Source: Microcaldota archaeon (lineage in GTDB: Archaea; Micrarchaeota; Micrarchaeia; Anstonellales; Anstonellaceae). Taken from it: a stretch of 64,000 bases of DNA. This document shows positions 24,737-36,452 of this stretch, piece after piece. The stretch spans positions 99,824-163,823 of the forward strand of contig JAKAJC010000001.1 in NCBI GenBank assembly GCA_021814005.1, given 5' to 3'. Position numbers and translations under genes: made by a program. Position 1 is the first letter of the stretch; each line of letters opens with the position of its first letter. Under the pieces are notes generated by a model. The model saw nothing but the letters and a program-made list of their open reading frames with translations. It searched no databases and had not been told where the DNA came from.

Positions 24737-27202
24737 ATGCCTAAAACAGGAAATATCAGGCTTTTCGCACCTTCTGAAAAAAAGAGATGGCAAAAATACC
24801 TGATAAACATCCAAAAAATATGCAAGGGGCCAGATTGGGAGAAAAAATACTGCAAGGAATTGAAAAAACACCTCACGGGTTTGTCTCAAACTCAGTTGCA
24901 ATCATTCAAACAAAAACTCGGTTATCCTAATACAGCTCAATTTGACGATATCCTTAGGGACAAGAAAAAAGCCATAACTGCTTATTGCTATTGGGTATTC
25001 TCTAGAAATTATCGTTCCAGCATAAGCAGATTCCTCAATCTGACGGGGCAAACCGGGAAAGCTCTTCAAAAAACAGCATTCTTGGGGATTCTAGGATTAT
25101 CTGACGCCGAACTGGAAGGAATCGTTCTCTTCCAGATATGGAGGAAAACGGCAATCTTCGAACGGGACTATTCGTTGCGTGAAGTTACGAATGAACAGAT
25201 TACGCAAGTGGATAAGAAAGTAAAGTGGCTAGCAGGAACTTTATCGAAGGGAGCGCATAGGCCTTCCGAAACCGATGATAAAGTTTATCACTTCAAGCAA
25301 AAGGGAGTCTATCGGGATTATCGGATCTACTGGTTTCTCAGACAAAAAAGCGATGAAGAAGAGCCGTCGTGGCCAAACAATCAACGGCAAAAACGGTTTT
25401 CGAGCAAAATATTAGCCATCAACCAAACAGGGAAGAAAATACATCTCGTTGTGCATAATTCTAAAGAGAGGAAAATTTTTCTTAGATTCCTTCAACGCAC
25501 GATTAAGCTTGAATTGATGTCAACCCAGAGCGAAACGCCTGTGAATAAAGCACAACTACAGAAGCTTTTCGTTCCAGATGAAGCTGACGACACTCTGCCC
25601 GTAATCAGCGTGTCCTACAAATATACTAATTTACCTGGAAATCCAAAGCTTATCATCCAAGATCGCGCTGGAAAAAACCCTGTAAAGGGCGCGGTCAAAA
25701 GACTTACTGAAAACAAAGACATAACCCCAGAAGAAATATCCAACATATCTGCATTTACTCTTCTTTTCTCAGGTCAGCCAGTCAAAGTCAGAGTTTTCGA
25801 GGGTAGATTTGGATACTACAAAATGCAAATCCCTGACAGAAGTCTGGCCTATCAGGATCGCGAAGGATTAATCTCACAATTTAAACAAAAAACAAACATT
25901 CCGATCAACCAATACTTTGAATTTGAAGGTAAACCCATCGAAGTCAAGGAAGCGATAAATTCGCTTCTAAACACCCAACTCGTTTCAATAAGCGATGATC
26001 CGCCCATATACCGGAAGGTCCTTGAAGTCTTATACCAGATGGGCCTCCTCCATGCGCCCGAAGAGGAAAACAAGCGATACTGCGTATACAATGGATGCGT
26101 GAAGCAATATGCCAATACTTGGCAGAAAGGCACGTGTTCGGAATGCGGGGGGCAATTGCACCTATTCGGAGAATACTTCGCAGTGAAGACAGATAAGGCA
26201 AAGATTCGAGAACTTATTTCAGACTCACTTATTTTAGAAGGATATTCGGTTGTGCACGGAACACGGAAATTCAATAAGAGGAAAACAGACGTTATCGAAG
26301 TATATACGCCAAAAGGCAGCGTTGTTGTAGTGCCAGTCAATTCACAAAAAATCGACTCAAACCTACTAGAATACTTGAAATTCAACGACGCAGCCGTAGT
26401 ATTCGCACCATATCCTTACACGAGCGAAACTGACCAAATTCGAGGATATGGGCATGGCGTTGTTACTGTGTCTGACCTTATCTACAATAAATTAACCAAT
26501 TCTAATCAAAAGTTGTTTACGGCTGAAATTGATTCTTGCTTAAATGCAACGCAAACCCGTATCGAAAACAACTATCGAAACGCATTGGCCCGGCTTGAAC
26601 GCACAGGGGATTACGACTTCCATAAATTCGAGGAAGACACATTCTCGCTAGTCCACTTCCTTCTGCCGACTTCTCAACGCCTAGGGGATCAGTTCATCGG
26701 CAAGCGTGTCCCGGATGGAATAGCGGCAATACCTCTTTCTTCATCCGAGAGATTCTGCGTCTCATGGGATAGCAAATACTCCACAGCGCAATACGCATTC
26801 AGCGAAAAACCTGCGAAATCCGCATACTACATAAAACGGCTGCAACCACTACCAGTAGTAAAGAATCTAGGTGGACTTGGATCCTTTATCTACATATCCA
26901 ACAATCTGCCAGAAAAAAGATTCAAGAAATTCGCTAAACGAGTGAAGAGACGGGCTAGATGGCCAGGTAGAATCATCCTGTTATCTTCTGCACAATTAAT
27001 GGAATTATGCAAGCACAAAGCATCCGTACAGCAAGTGCTTGCCGCATCTCCCGAGATGAATGAAAGTTACTACAAAAAGATAGCTGGATTATTCTCTAAA
27101 CGCTACCGAAAAATATACGCTATCTCCCCGGCCGAGATTCAGGCAATCACATCTAGCCAATATACGACACCTGCACTGAGTATAAGCCGCGCAGAAGTCT
27201 GA
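24737..27202 (+). CDS. 821-aa protein with central zinc ribbon and putative FokI-like PD-(D/E)XK nuclease domain
   Basis: CVYNGC...CSECGGQ zinc ribbon; RVPDGIAAIPLSSSERFCVSWDSKYS resembles the FokI catalytic PDG...DTK segment in order and spacing. Confidence 0.6.
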   Translation: MPKTGNIRLFAPSEKKRWQKYLINIQKICKGPDWEKKYCKELKKHLTGLSQTQLQSFKQKLGYPNTAQFDDILRDKKKAITAYCYWVFSRNYRSSISRFLNLTGQTGKALQKTAFLGILGLSDAELEGIVLFQIWRKTAIFERDYSLREVTNEQITQVDKKVKWLAGTLSKGAHRPSETDDKVYHFKQKGVYRDYRIYWFLRQKSDEEEPSWPNNQRQKRFSSKILAINQTGKKIHLVVHNSKERKIFLRFLQRTIKLELMSTQSETPVNKAQLQKLFVPDEADDTLPVISVSYKYTNLPGNPKLIIQDRAGKNPVKGAVKRLTENKDITPEEISNISAFTLLFSGQPVKVRVFEGRFGYYKMQIPDRSLAYQDREGLISQFKQKTNIPINQYFEFEGKPIEVKEAINSLLNTQLVSISDDPPIYRKVLEVLYQMGLLHAPEEENKRYCVYNGCVKQYANTWQKGTCSECGGQLHLFGEYFAVKTDKAKIRELISDSLILEGYSVVHGTRKFNKRKTDVIEVYTPKGSVVVVPVNSQKIDSNLLEYLKFNDAAVVFAPYPYTSETDQIRGYGHGVVTVSDLIYNKLTNSNQKLFTAEIDSCLNATQTRIENNYRNALARLERTGDYDFHKFEEDTFSLVHFLLPTSQRLGDQFIGKRVPDGIAAIPLSSSERFCVSWDSKYSTAQYAFSEKPAKSAYYIKRLQPLPVVKNLGGLGSFIYISNNLPEKRFKKFAKRVKRRARWPGRIILLSSAQLMELCKHKASVQQVLAASPEMNESYYKKIAGLFSKRYRKIYAISPAEIQAITSSQYTTPALSISRAEV

Positions 27203-27232: not shown

Positions 27233-29986
27233 ATGGAACCAGAGCAGAAAGCCCGCCGTAAAATTGATAAGATGCTTGAAGCGGCAGGCTGGGTCATCCA
27301 AGATTACAAGGATATGGATTTGGGCGCCAGTCTCGGCGTCGTTGTCCGTGAGTATCCGCTGAAAGAAGGCCGTGCGGATTATCTCCTCTTTGTGGATCGA
27401 AACGTGGTCGGTGTCCTCGAAGCTAAACCTGAAGGCACCACGCTAAGCGTTGTGGAAGAGCAATCCGAAGGCTATCTCAATAATACACCCGAGAACTTGC
27501 CAAACGTCCATTGGCCTCCTCCTTTCGCCTATGAGTCAACAGGGGTAGAAACCCGCTTTAGGGACAACCGCGATCCAAAACCTCGCTCCCGAAACCTTTT
27601 TGCGTTCCACAAGCCTGAAACGCTCTTGGAATGGGTGGAGCAAACTGAAACCCTCCGCTCTCGCTTGAAGAAATTCCCTCCTCTTCCAAAAGGCAACCTC
27701 CGCCAATGCCAGTTCGAGGCCATCAACAAGCTGGAGGAATCTTTAGGGAAGGACAGGCCAAAAGCCCTAATCCAAATGGCCACGGGAAGCGGCAAGACTT
27801 ATACTGCCGTAAGTTCCATTTATCGCCTAATCAAATTCGGCAAGGCCAAGCGCGTTCTCTTCCTCGTGGACCGCAACAATCTGGCCCGCCAAACCCTGCG
27901 GGAATTCCAGCAATACGTTCCTCCCGACTCAAACAAGCACTTTACGGACATCTATAATGTCCAACACCTCAAATCCAACAAAATCGACCCCGTGGCTAAA
28001 GTTTGCATCACTACCATCCAGCGTCTTTATGCCATCCTAAGCGGAAAAGAGATTGACGAAGAGATAGAAGAGCATTCGATGTTCGAAAGCGGCGCTTCCG
28101 CCAGGACGACCCCCATAACGGTGGATTACAACCCAGCCGTTCCCATCGAAACCTTTGACTTCATCATCAGCGACGAATGCCACCGCTCCATCTACAATCT
28201 CTGGCGGCAGGTTCTGGAATACTACGATTCCTACCTCATCGGCCTTACTGCCACCCCGTCCTTGCAGACATTGGGCTTCTTCAACAACAATCTGGTGATG
28301 GAATACAACCATGAGAAAGCCGTGGCCGATCAAGTCAATGTGCAGCTTGCCGGAGTCTATCGAATCGAAACCAAGATTTCCAAGCATGGGGATAAGGTAA
28401 AGGCTGGGTTCTATGTGGATGTGCGTGACAAATTCACCCGCGAGCGACGCATGGAGCTTCTGGACAAGGATTTCTCCTATGAGGCCGCCAAGCTCGATCG
28501 CTCCGTAGTTTCCCCAAGCCAGCTTCGGACAGTTATCCGAGAATTCAAGAACAAGCTGAAAACCGAGATATTCCCCGGCCGCGAGCACGTTCCCAAGACA
28601 CTCGTTTTCACCAAGAACGATGCCCATGCCGAAGACGTGGTGAATATCATCCGCGAGGAATTCGGAGAGGGCAACGACTTCTGTAAGAAGATTACCTACC
28701 GCTCCAACGAGAAGCCCGAGGACATACTTCAAGAGTTCCGAAACTCCTACAACCCCCGTATCGCCGTCACGGTGGACATGGTGGCCACAGGCACCGACAT
28801 TAAGCCCCTCGAATGCCTTCTCTTCCTTCGAGATGTCAATTCCAGGCTCTATTTTGAGCAAATGAAGGGACGTGGCACGCGCACCATCTCCAAAGACGAT
28901 ATGGCTTCGGTAACTCCCGACGCGGGCGACAAGACCTCATTCATTATCGTGGATGCAGTCGGCGTATGTGAGAAGGATAAAACTGACACCAAGCCACTGG
29001 ACCGCAAGCCAACCGTTGCCTTCGAGAAATTGGTTTTGGATGTCGCCAAGGGCATCCGAGACGAGGACACCATAAGCTCCATAGCCGGCCGTTTGGTCAA
29101 GCTGGACCGCAAGATGGAAGGGCCGGAGAAGCAGGAGTTCGTTCGGTTAAGTGGCGGCAAAGGCGTTTCTGAAGTGGCCGCCCAGCTCCTCGCCGCCAAT
29201 AGCATCGACAATCAGATGGTAGCCGCCAAAGCCATGTTCAAAACAGATAAGCCGGACGAGGCGCAGCTCGCCAAAGCTCGAAAGGAGCTGATAACCAAAG
29301 CCTGCCTGCCGCTCGACAAACCTGCACTTCGCAATTACCTCATCGATGTTAAGCGTGAGAAATACCAGATTATCGACACAGTAAGCCAGGACGTGGTGCT
29401 CCGCGCCTCCTTTGATGCTTCGGCTAAGGACAAGGCGCAGGCTATTGTGGGCAAATTCAAGGAATTCATCGAAAAGAACAAGAACGAAGTCTCGGCCCTT
29501 CAAATCATCTATGGCCGCCCCTATGCTCAGCGGCATTTGACTTACAAACAGATCAAGGAGCTTGCCGAAGCCATCGCTCGGCCCCCATATTACCTTAATT
29601 CAGAAGTCGTCTGGAATGCCTACAAGCAACTCGACAAAAGCCGCGTCCATGATGCGGGCCCCAAGAGGCTTCTTACAGACATTATCTCGCTCGTTCGTTA
29701 CACTGTAGGGGAGAGCAATTCGCTCGTGCCCTATACTCAACTGGTGGATTCCCGCTTCAAAGAGTGGCTTGCAGAGCAGAAAAAAGCAGGCCAGACATAC
29801 AATGCCGCCCAGATGGAATGGCTTGAGATGATAAAGGCGCACATCGCCGCCTCAGCCAGCATCGAGATAGACGATTTCGAATATGCCCCATTCGTTGGAA
29901 AAGGCGGGGCAGTAAAAGCCAGCAAAGTATTCGGCTCACGCCTCGATTCCATCCTGAGCGAGCTTAACGAGGCGTTGCCGATATGA
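27233..29986 (+). CDS. hsdR: type I restriction enzyme R subunit
   Basis: RADYLLFVDRNVVGVLEAKPEG nuclease motif, ALIQMATGSGKTYTAVSSIYRL, ISDECHRSI, LTATPS, RGTRTI. Confidence 0.94.
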   Translation: MEPEQKARRKIDKMLEAAGWVIQDYKDMDLGASLGVVVREYPLKEGRADYLLFVDRNVVGVLEAKPEGTTLSVVEEQSEGYLNNTPENLPNVHWPPPFAYESTGVETRFRDNRDPKPRSRNLFAFHKPETLLEWVEQTETLRSRLKKFPPLPKGNLRQCQFEAINKLEESLGKDRPKALIQMATGSGKTYTAVSSIYRLIKFGKAKRVLFLVDRNNLARQTLREFQQYVPPDSNKHFTDIYNVQHLKSNKIDPVAKVCITTIQRLYAILSGKEIDEEIEEHSMFESGASARTTPITVDYNPAVPIETFDFIISDECHRSIYNLWRQVLEYYDSYLIGLTATPSLQTLGFFNNNLVMEYNHEKAVADQVNVQLAGVYRIETKISKHGDKVKAGFYVDVRDKFTRERRMELLDKDFSYEAAKLDRSVVSPSQLRTVIREFKNKLKTEIFPGREHVPKTLVFTKNDAHAEDVVNIIREEFGEGNDFCKKITYRSNEKPEDILQEFRNSYNPRIAVTVDMVATGTDIKPLECLLFLRDVNSRLYFEQMKGRGTRTISKDDMASVTPDAGDKTSFIIVDAVGVCEKDKTDTKPLDRKPTVAFEKLVLDVAKGIRDEDTISSIAGRLVKLDRKMEGPEKQEFVRLSGGKGVSEVAAQLLAANSIDNQMVAAKAMFKTDKPDEAQLAKARKELITKACLPLDKPALRNYLIDVKREKYQIIDTVSQDVVLRASFDASAKDKAQAIVGKFKEFIEKNKNEVSALQIIYGRPYAQRHLTYKQIKELAEAIARPPYYLNSEVVWNAYKQLDKSRVHDAGPKRLLTDIISLVRYTVGESNSLVPYTQLVDSRFKEWLAEQKKAGQTYNAAQMEWLEMIKAHIAASASIEIDDFEYAPFVGKGGAVKASKVFGSRLDSILSELNEALPI

Positions 29987-30690
29987 TCACTTTTCTTAAT
30001 GGTCTAATTGGACGCTTTCACAAGTACTGGAAGATTCTTTCCAGCAATGCGCTTGAGTTCATTGCATATTTTGTCTTAGGATTAATTTTCCCATTAGTGG
30101 TGTTTTACTTCCTAAGAGATTGGACTCTACCCACTGTCCTCTTTTCGGTCTTCACTGGCTTTGGCCTTGGCCGGTTCTTCCAAGAGAAAGAGAAATTGGA
30201 GAGATGGCTAGAAGATTTGCGTGTTTTGAAATCCCAAATTGAAGTCTGGACAAAAGGCTTCAAGACATTGCGCTCTTTTCAAACGATGGAGAACTTTCAA
30301 TGGGGTCCGCAACTTAGTTGGCTTGATGGGCAATTGAATGGGTATTGGCTAGGAGACAAAAAGACATCTGTTTCAAAGACAAGTTTGGAGCCTCATTATT
30401 TCGAGAGAGTTGAAATCAGCCGCATAATGGGCGGAATTCAATATATCCCGATGAAAAACGCCAAATTCCTGCTCGGTTCTTTGAGGTCCATCAATCACAA
30501 GATAGACCACCTCAATTTAATCATCCAAATCCTGTATTTACGCAATGATTTAACGAACGACGAAATGAAGAAAATCGGCTCTGATCTCTGCGGCAGCCCG
30601 CTGGCAGTTTGCGAAACGCTGAAAGATGAACTTCCACTAGCGGAAAAGAAGCTTGCCGAGATTTTAGAAGGTTATGGATACATTGAATAG
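29983..30690 (+). CDS. membrane protein of unknown function inside the hsd operon
   Basis: Start overlaps the hsdR stop; two N-terminal hydrophobic helices then a soluble alpha-helical domain. Confidence 0.7.
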   Translation: MITFLNGLIGRFHKYWKILSSNALEFIAYFVLGLIFPLVVFYFLRDWTLPTVLFSVFTGFGLGRFFQEKEKLERWLEDLRVLKSQIEVWTKGFKTLRSFQTMENFQWGPQLSWLDGQLNGYWLGDKKTSVSKTSLEPHYFERVEISRIMGGIQYIPMKNAKFLLGSLRSINHKIDHLNLIIQILYLRNDLTNDEMKKIGSDLCGSPLAVCETLKDELPLAEKKLAEILEGYGYIE

Positions 30691-30702: not shown

Positions 30703-32118
30703 ATGACTGATAACGAAAAATTGCCGAAAGGGTGGGTTCTTGCCCCTCTCGGAGAACTTGCGGAGTATATCAATGGGCGCGCATTCAAACCTACCGAATG
30801 GGAGAGAGAAGGAAAACCGATTCTTCGCATTCAAAATCTAACAGGTTCAACCGATGAAATCAATCGCTACTCTAAACCTATCGAAGATAAATATCTCATT
30901 AAAGACGGACAACTGCTTATCTCTTGGTCTGCAACCCTTGGGGCATTCATATATCGTGGGGAAGATGCTGTTCTCAACCAGCATATCTTCAAAGTAATTC
31001 CATATGTCGATAAGAAGTATTTGTATCATTTAACCAACGCGTATATTGGTTCTCTAAAATCAAAGGTTCACGGATCGGGGATGCAGCATATTACTAAAGG
31101 TTTATTTGATACCTCTCAAGTCCCCCTTGCGCCATCGAACGAACAACTCCGCATAGTCTCAAAAATTGAAGAACTTGTCTCAGAACTGGACGCAGGTGTT
31201 TCATCTCTCCATAAAGCTAAATGCCAAATTAAGATCTATCGCCAATCAGTGCTCAAATCTGCATTTGATGGAAAGCTTACTGCAAAATGGCGGGAGAAAA
31301 ACAAAAACAAAATTGAATCAGTAGAAAAAATACTGGCGCGAATAAAGGAAGAACGGAAGTTACGACTTGGGAAGAGACACAAAGACGTGTTGCCGTTTGA
31401 TGCTTCAGAGCTACCCAAATTACCGAAGGAGTGGGTTTGGTGTTCGATGAGTGAGGCATGCGGCGTAATTTCTAACGGAAACACTCCTGAACCATCAAAA
31501 ATGACTAGGGATTCTGGGGATATTCCGTTCATAAAAGTATACAATCTTACAAAAGATGGCCGATTGGATTTCACTGTTAAGCCTACATTTATTGACCGAG
31601 AAACGCATAGAAAAGAATTAGCGAAATCGATCACTTACCCTGGCGATATCCTCATCAATATCGTCGGACCCCCCTTGGGGAAAGTATCGCTAGTCCCAGA
31701 TACGTATCCAGAATGGAATACTAATCAGGCAGTTGTCTTGTATCGAGCATCAAAGAACTTAGAAACACGATTCTTGCTGTTCTATCTATTGTCTAATGAT
31801 TTGATTCGTTTTCTCACTAAAAAATCAAAAGCCACTGCGGGGCAGTATAATGTTCAGTTAAGTACTTGTAGAAGCGCACCGCTTCCGTTTGTACCTATCC
31901 TCGAACAAAAAGAGATTGTAAGACAGATAGATATCAAGATGAGTGCAATTGAAAGGACGGAGCAACTTATTGACAAGAATCTCACTATGGCTGAGAATAT
32001 GCGCCAAAGCATTCTCAAAACCGCATTTGAAGGCAAGCTCGCCCCCCAAGATCCAAAAGATGAACCAGCGGAAAAACTGCTCGAACGAATTCGAGCTGAA
32101 AAATCCAAGAAGAGGTAA
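30703..32118 (+). CDS. hsdS: type I restriction enzyme specificity subunit
   Basis: LPKGWVLAPLGELAEYINGRAFKPTEW and LPKEWVWCSMSEACGVISNGNTPEP: two TRDs with conserved spacer helices. Confidence 0.93.
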   Translation: MTDNEKLPKGWVLAPLGELAEYINGRAFKPTEWEREGKPILRIQNLTGSTDEINRYSKPIEDKYLIKDGQLLISWSATLGAFIYRGEDAVLNQHIFKVIPYVDKKYLYHLTNAYIGSLKSKVHGSGMQHITKGLFDTSQVPLAPSNEQLRIVSKIEELVSELDAGVSSLHKAKCQIKIYRQSVLKSAFDGKLTAKWREKNKNKIESVEKILARIKEERKLRLGKRHKDVLPFDASELPKLPKEWVWCSMSEACGVISNGNTPEPSKMTRDSGDIPFIKVYNLTKDGRLDFTVKPTFIDRETHRKELAKSITYPGDILINIVGPPLGKVSLVPDTYPEWNTNQAVVLYRASKNLETRFLLFYLLSNDLIRFLTKKSKATAGQYNVQLSTCRSAPLPFVPILEQKEIVRQIDIKMSAIERTEQLIDKNLTMAENMRQSILKTAFEGKLAPQDPKDEPAEKLLERIRAEKSKKR

Positions 32119-32122
32119 TTTT

Positions 32123-33580
32123 ATGCCTGAATCAAGCTCCATTGTTCAAAAAGTCTGGAATTACTGCACGGTTCTTCGGGACGATGGTGTTGGTTATGGG
32201 GATTATGTCGAGCAACTAACATATCTCATCTTCCTCAAAATGGCACACGAGCAGACAAAACCTCCATACAATAAGCCGTCCACGATACCCAAGGGATACG
32301 ATTGGCTCTCTTTAACCTCAAAAGATGGCGAAGCGTTGGAAGGCCATTATTTGGCTACCCTAACCGCTTTAGGAAAGGAAAAGGGGATGCTAGGTATCAT
32401 TTTTGCCAAAGCTCAATCCAAAATCCAAGACCCAGCCAAACTCAAACGCTTAATCAGCCTGATTGATGATGAGGTCTGGCTCGGATTAGATGTTGATGTA
32501 AAGGGGGAAATCTACGAGGGATTGCTCCAAAAGAACGCGGAGGACACCAAGAGCGGCGCAGGCCAATATTTCACGCCAAGACCATTAATCAAAACTATGG
32601 TCGAAGTCATGCAGCCAAAGCCAAATATGAAAATCTGCGACCCGGCCAGCGGAACTGGCGGATTCCTTACCTTGACTTACGATTACATAGTCAAGCACAA
32701 CAATTTAGACAAAGACCAGAAGAAATTCCTCAAGAACGATGCGTTGAGAGGCTACGATATTGTCCCTCAAGTCGCTAGGCTCTGCGCCATGAACCTTTTT
32801 CTCCACGGTATCGGCTCCGAGCAGTCGCCCATTCAGGTTAGGGATTCTTTGGCCTCTGACGATGGCGAACGGTTTGATATGGTCTTGACCAATCCGCCTT
32901 TTGGGAAGAAGAGCAGTATCACAATCGTAAATGAAGAAGGGAAATCGGACAAGGATTCGGTATCATATGAACGCCCTGACTTCTGGACCACCACTTCCAA
33001 CAAGCAACTGAACTTTGTCCAGCACATCAAGACCATCCTAAAAGTCGGGGGAAGTGCGGCAGTCGTAGTCCCGGACAACGTATTATTCGAAGGGGGCGCA
33101 GGAGAAACCATCCGCAAGAACCTGCTAAAGGACTTCGAGGTTCATACGCTGCTGAGGCTGCCAACTGGTCTATTCTATGCTCAGGGAGTCAAAGCCAACG
33201 TAATCTTCTTTGATAAGAAACAAGCCTCTGAGAGCGCGTGGACGAAAGACCTCTGGATCTACGATTTGAGGACAAACAAGCATTTCACGCTCAAGGAAAG
33301 CTCGATGGGCATGAAGGACTTGGAAGACTTCGTTAAGTGCTACAACCCACAGAACCGGCACCAAAGGAAGGAAACCGAGCGTTTCAAGCGCTTCAAATAC
33401 GAAGATTTGATTAAGCGGGATAAGACCAGCTTGGATATTTTCTGGCTCAAGGATGACAGCCTGACGGATTCGGATAACCTGCCGGAGCCGAGCTTAATCG
33501 CCGAAGAGATAGTCGAGAACTTGGAAGAGGCATTGGAAAGCTTTAGAGAGATCGAGAATGGTCTGGAACGGAAGAAGTGA
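32123..33580 (+). CDS. hsdM: type I restriction enzyme methyltransferase subunit
   Basis: GAGQYFTPRPLIKTMVEVM, ICDPASGTGGFL, FDMVLTNPPFG. Confidence 0.95.
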   Translation: MPESSSIVQKVWNYCTVLRDDGVGYGDYVEQLTYLIFLKMAHEQTKPPYNKPSTIPKGYDWLSLTSKDGEALEGHYLATLTALGKEKGMLGIIFAKAQSKIQDPAKLKRLISLIDDEVWLGLDVDVKGEIYEGLLQKNAEDTKSGAGQYFTPRPLIKTMVEVMQPKPNMKICDPASGTGGFLTLTYDYIVKHNNLDKDQKKFLKNDALRGYDIVPQVARLCAMNLFLHGIGSEQSPIQVRDSLASDDGERFDMVLTNPPFGKKSSITIVNEEGKSDKDSVSYERPDFWTTTSNKQLNFVQHIKTILKVGGSAAVVVPDNVLFEGGAGETIRKNLLKDFEVHTLLRLPTGLFYAQGVKANVIFFDKKQASESAWTKDLWIYDLRTNKHFTLKESSMGMKDLEDFVKCYNPQNRHQRKETERFKRFKYEDLIKRDKTSLDIFWLKDDSLTDSDNLPEPSLIAEEIVENLEEALESFREIENGLERKK

Positions 33581-33586
33581 TGCTCA

Positions 33587-34225
33587 ATGACAGCAATCGT
33601 TCTATTCTATCTGGACAGAGGAAAAACACTAGTTGTTGCATCAGATAAGAAAATCTCGTATGGAAATCAGTTCAAAAGCGCTTCATCTTGTGAAGGAGAA
33701 AAATTTCATAATTTTGGGAATTACTATATTTTTTATGCGGGTGACGCTGCTCTCTTCAAATCAGTTATTAACGGATTAGAAAAAAAAGGCAGCCTGACAC
33801 TTCACACCATCAGAGATTATATCCTCCAAAGAAGCCCGCGAAAATCTCCTTGCAACTGGATCATACTAGATAGTAAGAATATCGACAAGGTAATCTTCAT
33901 TCGAGATGGAAATGAGCAAAGTATGATGGACGATATTGAATGTATTGGACAGGGAGAATATTTTGGCCATCTACCAAAACAAATCATAATCGGAGAATTT
34001 ACTCCGAAATGGATTCCATGCAAACAATTGCCTTGGTCCCCCTTATTTGTTGACAAACTTCTAAGATTGTACAAAGAATATTCTTTTCTAGACGATGCGA
34101 TAGGACATCCGGGAGTATATGGACTTGATTTGTTCGTGTTCTCTTCATCAAAAAAGCAACAGCTTAAACGAATTTTATGCAAACACGACCTAACGAATCA
34201 CAATAGCTATAATGGATGGGATTAG
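33587..34225 (+). CDS. HslV/proteasome beta-like Ntn-hydrolase (predicted)
   Basis: M-TAIVLFYLDRGKTLVVASDKKISYGN...GEKFHNFGNYYIFYAGDAALFKSVINGLE...CIGQGEYF lines up with HslV TTIVSVRRNGHVVIAGDGQ...VKKVRRL...AGFAGGTADAF...IGSGGNF. Confidence 0.6.
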   Translation: MTAIVLFYLDRGKTLVVASDKKISYGNQFKSASSCEGEKFHNFGNYYIFYAGDAALFKSVINGLEKKGSLTLHTIRDYILQRSPRKSPCNWIILDSKNIDKVIFIRDGNEQSMMDDIECIGQGEYFGHLPKQIIIGEFTPKWIPCKQLPWSPLFVDKLLRLYKEYSFLDDAIGHPGVYGLDLFVFSSSKKQQLKRILCKHDLTNHNSYNGWD

Positions 34226-34226
34226 G

Positions 34227-36452
34227 ATGGAACTTTCTCAATTCGAAAAATATAACAAAGAAGAACAGATTGCAAAATGGGCCCAGGTACGCGAAGGTCT
34301 ATCTCCAGAAGAAAAGAAAAAACTAATCGAGCAAGCCATCAGCGATGAGTATGGCATGTGGTCCTATCTAGAATTGATTTCTGCTATTCTATACGAAATT
34401 GCATCCGATTCAGATCAATATATTCAACTTCTCGATAAGATTACAACCCGAACTAGTCGAGATTTAGCACAAGGGCCGATTTTGGAGTCCCTCATCCGGA
34501 TTGGAGAGCAAAAAAGTGAACTTGGGCTACATATTCGAGATAAGATAATCAAGACAGGAAATAAACCTCTGATAGTTTTATCTGGATTAATTCTTGGTGG
34601 TTTTGGAAAGAAAAATGAAAAAGAAGTCATGAAGATACTGAACAATGAGAAAAACAGTGAGGATTCAAGTCGACTCAGTTCTCATATAAAAGCAATTCTT
34701 GTTATCAATGAAAAAAAAGACGTAATTGATAAAGCGCACAAAGAATATATCGATTATCTCCTCACAAAAAATCGTCAAGAGATTGACCTTGAGTTACTAA
34801 ATCTAAGTATTGCAGACTATAAGAAAGATAGAGACTATTTCTATCCAATCATTCTGAGACTTGTAAAGAAAGACGAGCTATGCCGCCGCTTGGCGTTTAG
34901 AAGACTTTCTCCAAAGGATCAGATGGAAGAAACCAGAGTATTTGAACTGATTGGTCATTCAAAAGATTCTGAACTGGAAACAATTAATGAGATATTGATG
35001 CTACTCGTAAGATACCCTCATCGATTCCACGACACATTGGACTTGTGCTATTACTGGATTAACAAAGGCTACTATAATGATTTGAAGCATATTGATTGGG
35101 TTCTGGAAGAACTCGCAAAAAAGAATAATGGTTTTGTCGGAGAATTCTTCGATACCTGCTTTAATAAAATCGAAGAGAAAAATTACATATTCATTACCTT
35201 CATTATCAAGGATATTGGGCAGTATGACCTAGACACGACTATAGACCGCACAATGAAGATTCAGACGGATTCTGTTATCAAAGAAATTATTTGGCACCAG
35301 CTTCTTGGTGCAATACTTGGTTTTTGTTATAATGATTCAACGAAACTCGGTCAGGTTCAGAAGTTCTCGAAGTTGCTCATCGAACGTGCAAAAGGAAAGA
35401 AATACATCAAAACGGGAATTCCCGCTAACCTGTTAGACGCGAGCAAATTAAATGACGATGAATATCGGGTTCTTATAGATAAAGTCGCTAAACTAATTGA
35501 AGGAATTAGGATTGGCCAAGAAGAGTACGATTTCGTAGCCATTGAAAAGAACCTGAGCAAATACCCTACTATCGAACCACTTTTCAAGGATATCTTAATT
35601 GAGTGTAAAAATGGAAAATACTCGCCATTACTATGGATGCTTGAGAAGGAAGAACCTTCCAGTGACGATGTTCAATTTAAGGAGAATGAATCGGAATTAT
35701 CAAAGGCGCTCAAATTTGAAGCACTACGGAGCACATTCTGGCCAAGAGCGTATCTAACCGAACTAAATCAAGGTTTATCTGTCTTTATGAGTGTTGAAAA
35801 TGACCGGAGAAATTCAAAGGAAAAAGAAAAAGAGATAAAAGACAAATTCATGGATGATGACGGCTTCTGGCGCTTTTTCTCAGAATTAATGATTATGAAG
35901 CGGCTTGGGGCTAAAAATATAATCACAAAAGATAAGGTCATCGGAACCAAAGATATCGACATCGAGGCAAAACTTGGAGAAAAAACTGTCCTATTCGAGA
36001 TTACAACCCCTGATCAAGACAGAGATTTGAAACTTTCTAATCGTTCGGTTGGATTAGGGAATAAATCTGAGTCAGTCCTGTCGAAGAAAAATACCCAGCT
36101 TCTTGTAGGGCTTGCTAAGAGTTCTCGTGAAAACAGTACCCCATATTATGTCGTCATGAATGTTAGTGGATCAACCATCGACGAATACGATTTATTCAAT
36201 ACGCTATTTGGTCAGTTAAAGATTCCGATTCACAGCGGAGAGCCATTCCGAGATGGGCGAACTTCTATCCAAATGAAGAAAAAAGATAAGCTGCTAATCA
36301 GCGGCGTGGTGTACTTCAAACAGAAACTTGTAATTGATGGAGATAGAACCCCAAGAATCCAGCTAATTGGGGACGTAATTAATACGCCAAATGCCAGAAA
36401 TGCTTTGAACGAGGGCGAGGTCGCTAAGCTCAAAGGATTACTCTTCGCATAG
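34227..36452 (+). CDS. 742-aa helical-repeat protein with possible C-terminal nuclease-like domain
   Basis: Long alpha-helical N-part; C-term TKDIDIEAKLGEKTVLFEITTPDQD with PD-(D/E)XK-like hydrophobic pattern; start abuts the preceding stop. Confidence 0.5.
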   Translation: MELSQFEKYNKEEQIAKWAQVREGLSPEEKKKLIEQAISDEYGMWSYLELISAILYEIASDSDQYIQLLDKITTRTSRDLAQGPILESLIRIGEQKSELGLHIRDKIIKTGNKPLIVLSGLILGGFGKKNEKEVMKILNNEKNSEDSSRLSSHIKAILVINEKKDVIDKAHKEYIDYLLTKNRQEIDLELLNLSIADYKKDRDYFYPIILRLVKKDELCRRLAFRRLSPKDQMEETRVFELIGHSKDSELETINEILMLLVRYPHRFHDTLDLCYYWINKGYYNDLKHIDWVLEELAKKNNGFVGEFFDTCFNKIEEKNYIFITFIIKDIGQYDLDTTIDRTMKIQTDSVIKEIIWHQLLGAILGFCYNDSTKLGQVQKFSKLLIERAKGKKYIKTGIPANLLDASKLNDDEYRVLIDKVAKLIEGIRIGQEEYDFVAIEKNLSKYPTIEPLFKDILIECKNGKYSPLLWMLEKEEPSSDDVQFKENESELSKALKFEALRSTFWPRAYLTELNQGLSVFMSVENDRRNSKEKEKEIKDKFMDDDGFWRFFSELMIMKRLGAKNIITKDKVIGTKDIDIEAKLGEKTVLFEITTPDQDRDLKLSNRSVGLGNKSESVLSKKNTQLLVGLAKSSRENSTPYYVVMNVSGSTIDEYDLFNTLFGQLKIPIHSGEPFRDGRTSIQMKKKDKLLISGVVYFKQKLVIDGDRTPRIQLIGDVINTPNARNALNEGEVAKLKGLLFA

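Follow-up and report, generated by a model that had tools for sequence, protein, structure and literature searches.

Why would the gene of a large and putatively helical protein lie one nucleotide behind that of a small proteasome-like candidate, downstream of a restriction-modification (R-M) system? We explored this question in a Microcaldota archaeon (GenBank assembly GCA_021814005.1, contig JAKAJC010000001.1, positions 99,824 to 163,823 of the forward strand); the 64,000 nucleotides analysed are called the window below. The open reading frame (ORF) in question spans 34227-36452 (+) and has 742 codons, or 741 residues and a stop. A sequence-only reading of this DNA had described it as a helical-repeat protein with a possible nuclease-like C-terminus, coupled to a candidate N-terminal nucleophile (Ntn) hydrolase of 212 residues that might activate or silence it by proteolysis. 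The tight spacing described there agrees with the coordinates, as the TAG stop of the 212-residue gene ends at 34225 and the ATG of the large gene follows one nucleotide later, at 34227. If translation began at another in-frame ATG, at 34212, the protein would have 746 residues and its gene a 14-nt overlap with the upstream one.

Recurrence of the gene pair in a second archaeal phylum

The decisive result is a second locus with the same pair, L026, in another archaeal phylum. The large protein there (P0013, 746 residues) is 33% identical to that of the window over its full length (749 columns). Its gene is preceded, with an overlap of about 20 nt and in the same order as in the window, by the gene of a 218-residue Ntn protein, which shares 22% identity with the 212-residue protein (E 7e-13 for that comparison). 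Both pairs closely follow a methyltransferase-bearing R-M gene on the same strand. In the window this is the type I hsdM, 6 nt upstream, and in L026 it is a type IIG gene, 53 nt upstream, whose 1001-residue product contains Eco57I methylase, TaqI_C and HSDR_N domains. This conserved R-M linkage had no place in the earlier reading. Judging from the sequences, the large ORF is genuine and no chance reading frame, since it has full-length homologs and since its acidic positions are kept in all ten aligned C-terminal domains.

Sampling of the family covered two archaeal phyla as well as collections of plasmids, phages and viruses. For bacterial chromosomes it consisted of pattern scans of a single genome collection, in one scan among the matches listed. 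Both pair loci come from contigs of metagenome-assembled genomes. The pair is rare. A profile built from the two Ntn proteins found a single genome in each phylum, G000 out of 295 in that of the window and G833 out of 358 in the other. The large protein itself was present in one of 302 genomes of the window's phylum, namely the window's own.

The haloarchaeal class contained relatives of the large protein in 6 of 400 genomes, some of them truncated or degraded. Three plasmids and Halosimplex (L007) were among the haloarchaeal matches listed, and further relatives occur in other members of the haloarchaeal phylum. The family falls into four branches: haloarchaeal proteins of about 695 residues; P0013; proteins of 838-859 residues (P0015 and that of L040) with an additional C-terminal region, which in P0015 is HhH-like (HHH_5, E 3e-4, under the cut-off); and proteins of about 365 residues that have the C-terminal domain alone in common with the others. 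Scans of viral contigs and tblastn searches of phage records gave no relative of the large protein. Truncated or stop-interrupted copies of the haloarchaeal relative lie at L014:8978-9622 and in L009, suggesting that the family has been lost in some lineages.

Most relatives lack a nearby Ntn gene and are found within defence islands or R-M-linked arrays. The haloarchaeal ones adjoin BREX-5 pglZ, DUF499/DUF1156 and JAB-E1 genes, and there is no Ntn gene there. In Halosimplex, a protein with a JAMM (JAB) motif and then a ThiF/E1 protein, whose N-terminus gives a weak match of E2-like type, are encoded upstream of the relative (L007:3217-6030, +). The earlier claim of coupling to an Ntn-hydrolase was borne out in that the pair recurs in L026, but an obligate pairing is not supported. 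Because most relatives have no Ntn gene, the large protein is the core unit and the Ntn peptidase candidate a lineage-specific partner. The segment before the C-terminal domain is longer in both paired proteins than in the haloarchaeal ones; a linker specific to Ntn-paired proteins was considered and dropped, as this segment is also long in one unpaired relative.

Residue patterns of the two proteins

The C-terminal domain was examined in an alignment of ten such domains, in which those of the relatives are 17-36% identical to that of the window. The acidic beta-hairpin with threonine in place of lysine that was previously described is present as IGTKDIDIEAKLGEKTVLFEITTP, which includes D576, D578 and E591, with Thr593 at the usual lysine position. 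E553 and D578 are invariant, and position 591 is either E or D in all ten. The canonical (D/E)XK lysine position reads T, T, R, A, Q, R, K, R, Y and Y, so that lysine is found in one relative alone. Another lysine, K621, is invariant in all ten domains and lies in a segment predicted as a helix after the E-x-K strand. The nuclease-like motif is thus strengthened, with its acidic positions kept across relatives and an invariant lysine added in the next helix. There are PD-(D/E)XK families in which the motif III lysine has migrated to the motif IV helix, and in DUF1626 this lysine is often replaced by threonine (Knizewski et al., PMC1913061). The residue pattern here fits such migrated-lysine variants, and K621 could substitute for the residue lost at position 593; since the pattern corresponds to these descriptions, the threonine is accounted for. 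DUF1626 and the migrated-lysine families resemble the large protein in the change from lysine to threonine and in the basic residues of the next helix. No sequence match to them is detectable, however, and in the large protein the domain is joined to a helical region of some length and to a C-terminal extension that is conserved.

No family match to the large protein was found in Pfam, PADLOC, NCBIfam or the PDB; the PD-(D/E)XK superfamily is known to escape family-level sequence searches (PMC1913061). In the PDB, P0001 matched the CLK2 kinase and P0005 a tetanus toxin fragment; with E values of 0.2-0.6, these matches were discarded as noise. An AlphaFold2 (AF2) model of the C-terminal domain from a two-sequence alignment reached a predicted local distance difference test (pLDDT) score of 34.2 and was set aside as evidence for the fold. 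The helical nature of the N-terminal region is plausible; the homolog P0013 shows weak TPR/ARM matches (E 0.004-0.007, under the curated cut-offs).

Both Ntn proteins begin with Met-Thr and have a common S-D at the Asp17 position. In the window's protein, Thr2 and D20 align with HslV and PsmB. Each of the two has a lysine near the Lys33 position, where the alignment is loose, and each has a weak match to the PHROG family peptidase HslV that starts at residue 1 (E 0.0014 and 0.027). Neither has a match in Pfam. A single-sequence AF2 model of the window's protein was poor (pLDDT 41) and was likewise set aside; nearly all chains listed by Foldseek for this model were proteasome or HslV chains, none of them significant, which is suggestive at best. 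Since the genome carries two ordinary proteasome-family (PF00227) genes elsewhere, the 212-residue protein is probably an extra homolog. That it might be an ordinary proteasome subunit was rejected because of these two genes and because it does not match PF00227 itself. For the 22 new proteasome homologs surveyed by Fuchs et al. (2021, PMC8665760), no genomic context hinted at function. Those proteins resemble the present candidate in being small, with a threonine after the methionine, no propeptide and an HslV-like start, but differ from it in that the window's pair has a genomic context suggestive of function.

A putative protease-gated nuclease and its alternatives

We tentatively propose that the two genes form an R-M-attached module in which an Ntn peptidase gates a lysine-migrated, restriction endonuclease-like nuclease by proteolysis, providing a second line of defence. 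Together, the large gene and the 212-residue gene before it would constitute an accessory defence module on the R-M operon. The C-terminal domain would be the nuclease, its catalytic lysine probably moved from the position of Thr593 to K621 in the next helix, and the helical N-terminal region would serve as a scaffold or sensor that keeps the nuclease off. Proteolysis by the proteasome/HslV-like peptidase would alter the state of the large protein. Most likely this would be an activation, brought about once the R-M system has been blocked or overwhelmed, and the freed nuclease would then cut DNA (or RNA). The recurrence of the pair behind restriction genes in two unrelated archaea suggests a protease-controlled antiviral module that has gone unrecognised. 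It is possible, though doubtful, that a proteasome-type Ntn peptidase activates an R-M-linked PD-(D/E)XK nuclease with a migrated lysine, which would place an orphan proteasome homolog in archaeal antiviral immunity.

Proteases are known to activate pro-nucleases in unrelated defence systems, namely at Hachiman, AVAST and canu loci (Tuck et al. 2025, PMC12799240), and by analogy these pairs are the closest functional precedent. They consist of adjacent predicted nuclease and protease genes, acquired in a modular manner on unrelated defence systems; the window and L026 share the adjacency of two genes and the defence linkage, with nuclease and protease identities that are predicted. The published pairs combine a nuclease of the metallo-beta-lactamase (MBL) fold with a trypsin-like or caspase protease, whereas the present ones would combine a restriction endonuclease-like domain on a helical scaffold with an Ntn peptidase, in archaea and beside R-M genes. 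In Pfam searches, neither protein showed a domain of the MBL, trypsin or caspase kind. PrrC-PrrI and HEPN genes in R-M operons are similar in that an accessory effector in an hsd operon has been proposed to act as a second line when restriction fails, but PrrC is an ABC-ATPase/HEPN anticodon nuclease without a protease partner (PMC3710099), and Pfam and PADLOC gave no HEPN or ABC domain for the large protein. If the proposal is right, protease-gated nucleases arose again with another protease class and another nuclease fold, and gated nuclease-protease pairs would extend to a third protease class. The conserved partner and the R-M setting, both seen in two archaeal phyla, make the function of a proteasome-homolog candidate directly testable.

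Several observations weigh against this proposal. Two pair loci are known in total, and the absence of an Ntn gene near most relatives means that the family does not require one. Neither fold is backed by structure (AF2 pLDDT 34 for the C-terminal domain and 41 for the Ntn protein), searches with the two proteins gave no PDB match, and hhalign comparisons of the Ntn proteins with HslV, PsmA and PsmB gave no signal. Loss of the canonical lysine could indicate a non-catalytic, nucleic acid-binding domain. What the loci show is the pairing, its order and tight coupling, the R-M linkage and the kept motif residues; the folds, the nuclease and peptidase activities, the proteolytic control with its direction, and the trigger are predictions.

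The direction of control might be the reverse. In healthy cells the Ntn peptidase would then break down a toxic effector, which would be set free once the peptidase fails during infection, as in toxin-antitoxin (TA) systems. The Ntn gene does come first and is tightly coupled, an order often seen for antitoxins, and an AbiE-type TA system adjoins the L026 pair on the far side from the R-M gene. However, the many relatives without an Ntn gene need no such antitoxin, and the published nuclease-protease precedent activates instead (PMC12799240); we consider silencing unlikely. An additional restriction nuclease or DNA-binding subunit working with the R-M enzyme is another explanation for the large protein, the Ntn protein being separate cargo or having a different role, for example as a ligase. 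The linkage to R-M genes is wider than that to Ntn genes, and connectase, a proteasome homolog that acts as a ligase, indicates that such a homolog is not necessarily a protease (PMC8665760). Yet the tightly coupled order of Ntn and effector genes in two phyla argues for a joint function, which leaves this explanation with a low probability. A degenerate, non-catalytic C-terminal domain, with the large protein as sensor and the Ntn protein as effector, would suit the variable E-x-K lysine but is quite improbable, as the three acidic positions and K621 are kept despite the low identity among the domains and standalone relatives without an Ntn gene persist in defence islands.

The window locus and cargo behind restriction genes

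The genes from hsdR to the 742-codon gene lie on one strand with short gaps (Table 1), in a genome of about 1.2 Mb in 34 contigs, which 16S and 23S rRNA models identify as archaeal. The last two genes have a G+C content of 0.37-0.38, compared with 0.52 for hsdR, 0.47 for hsdM and 0.53 for the window, as expected of separately acquired cargo. Directly upstream of hsdR, an 821-residue protein without a confident Pfam match is encoded at 24737-27202 (+) and is possibly part of the R-M operon.

Table 1. Genes, domains and residues of the window locus; positions are those of the window.
Feature	Position	Strand	Remark
HsdR, type I restriction subunit (EcoEI type)	27233-29986	+	
235-residue protein without assigned function	29983-30690	+	hydrophobic stretch at the N-terminus; gene lies between hsdR and hsdS
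HsdS, type I specificity subunit	30703-32118	+	
HsdM, type I methyltransferase	31943-33580	+	longest ORF; true start probably further in
Proteasome/HslV-like Ntn-hydrolase candidate, 212 residues	33587-34225	+	Thr2, exposed once Met is removed, would act as N-terminal nucleophile
D20 and K39 of the Ntn-hydrolase candidate			other triad candidates
Effector candidate, 741 residues	34227-36452	+	helical N-terminal region (about residues 1-470), linker, PD-(D/E)XK-like C-terminal domain (predicted)
C-terminal nuclease-like domain, residues 539-741	35841-36449	+	E553, D578 and K621 invariant; E/D at 591
Putative active-site span	35883-36089	+	E553, D578, E591, T593, K621
E553 codon	35883-35885		
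D578 codon	35958-35960		
E591 codon	35997-35999		
T593 codon	36003-36005		replaces Lys
K621 codon	36087-36089		

Duplications of the R-M 3' end (tail) accompany other relatives; none was found when sought in the window. In L040, the 3' end of a type ISP-like R-M gene is duplicated (999-1298 and 2515-2814; 300 nt, 87% identical), with a metallophosphatase-like gene between the two copies and the 838-residue relative after the second. Members of the 365-residue branch in L029, L041 and L042 adjoin copies of a type IIG R-M 3' end. The genomes, of 2.1-2.6 Mb, have 15-16 tail copies, and about 3% of each is no further than 2 kb from a tail. By this rough estimate, three tail-adjacent placements are unlikely to be due to chance.

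Arrays of defence genes behind type IIG R-M genes were also seen in L041 (G928:C16), L042 (G849:C33), L050-L053 and L029. The repeat between their cargo genes is the R-M 3' end, about 68 residues, with DNA repeats of 147-212 nt at 70-88% identity. There are 27 same-strand tail arrays in 18 of the 57 genomes of one archaeal class, and their cargo includes GajA/GajB (Gabija), SIR2, TIR and ApeA-like HEPN genes. A short search of the literature gave no account of such R-M-tail cargo arrays. They look like the product of stepwise capture of cargo at the R-M 3' end.
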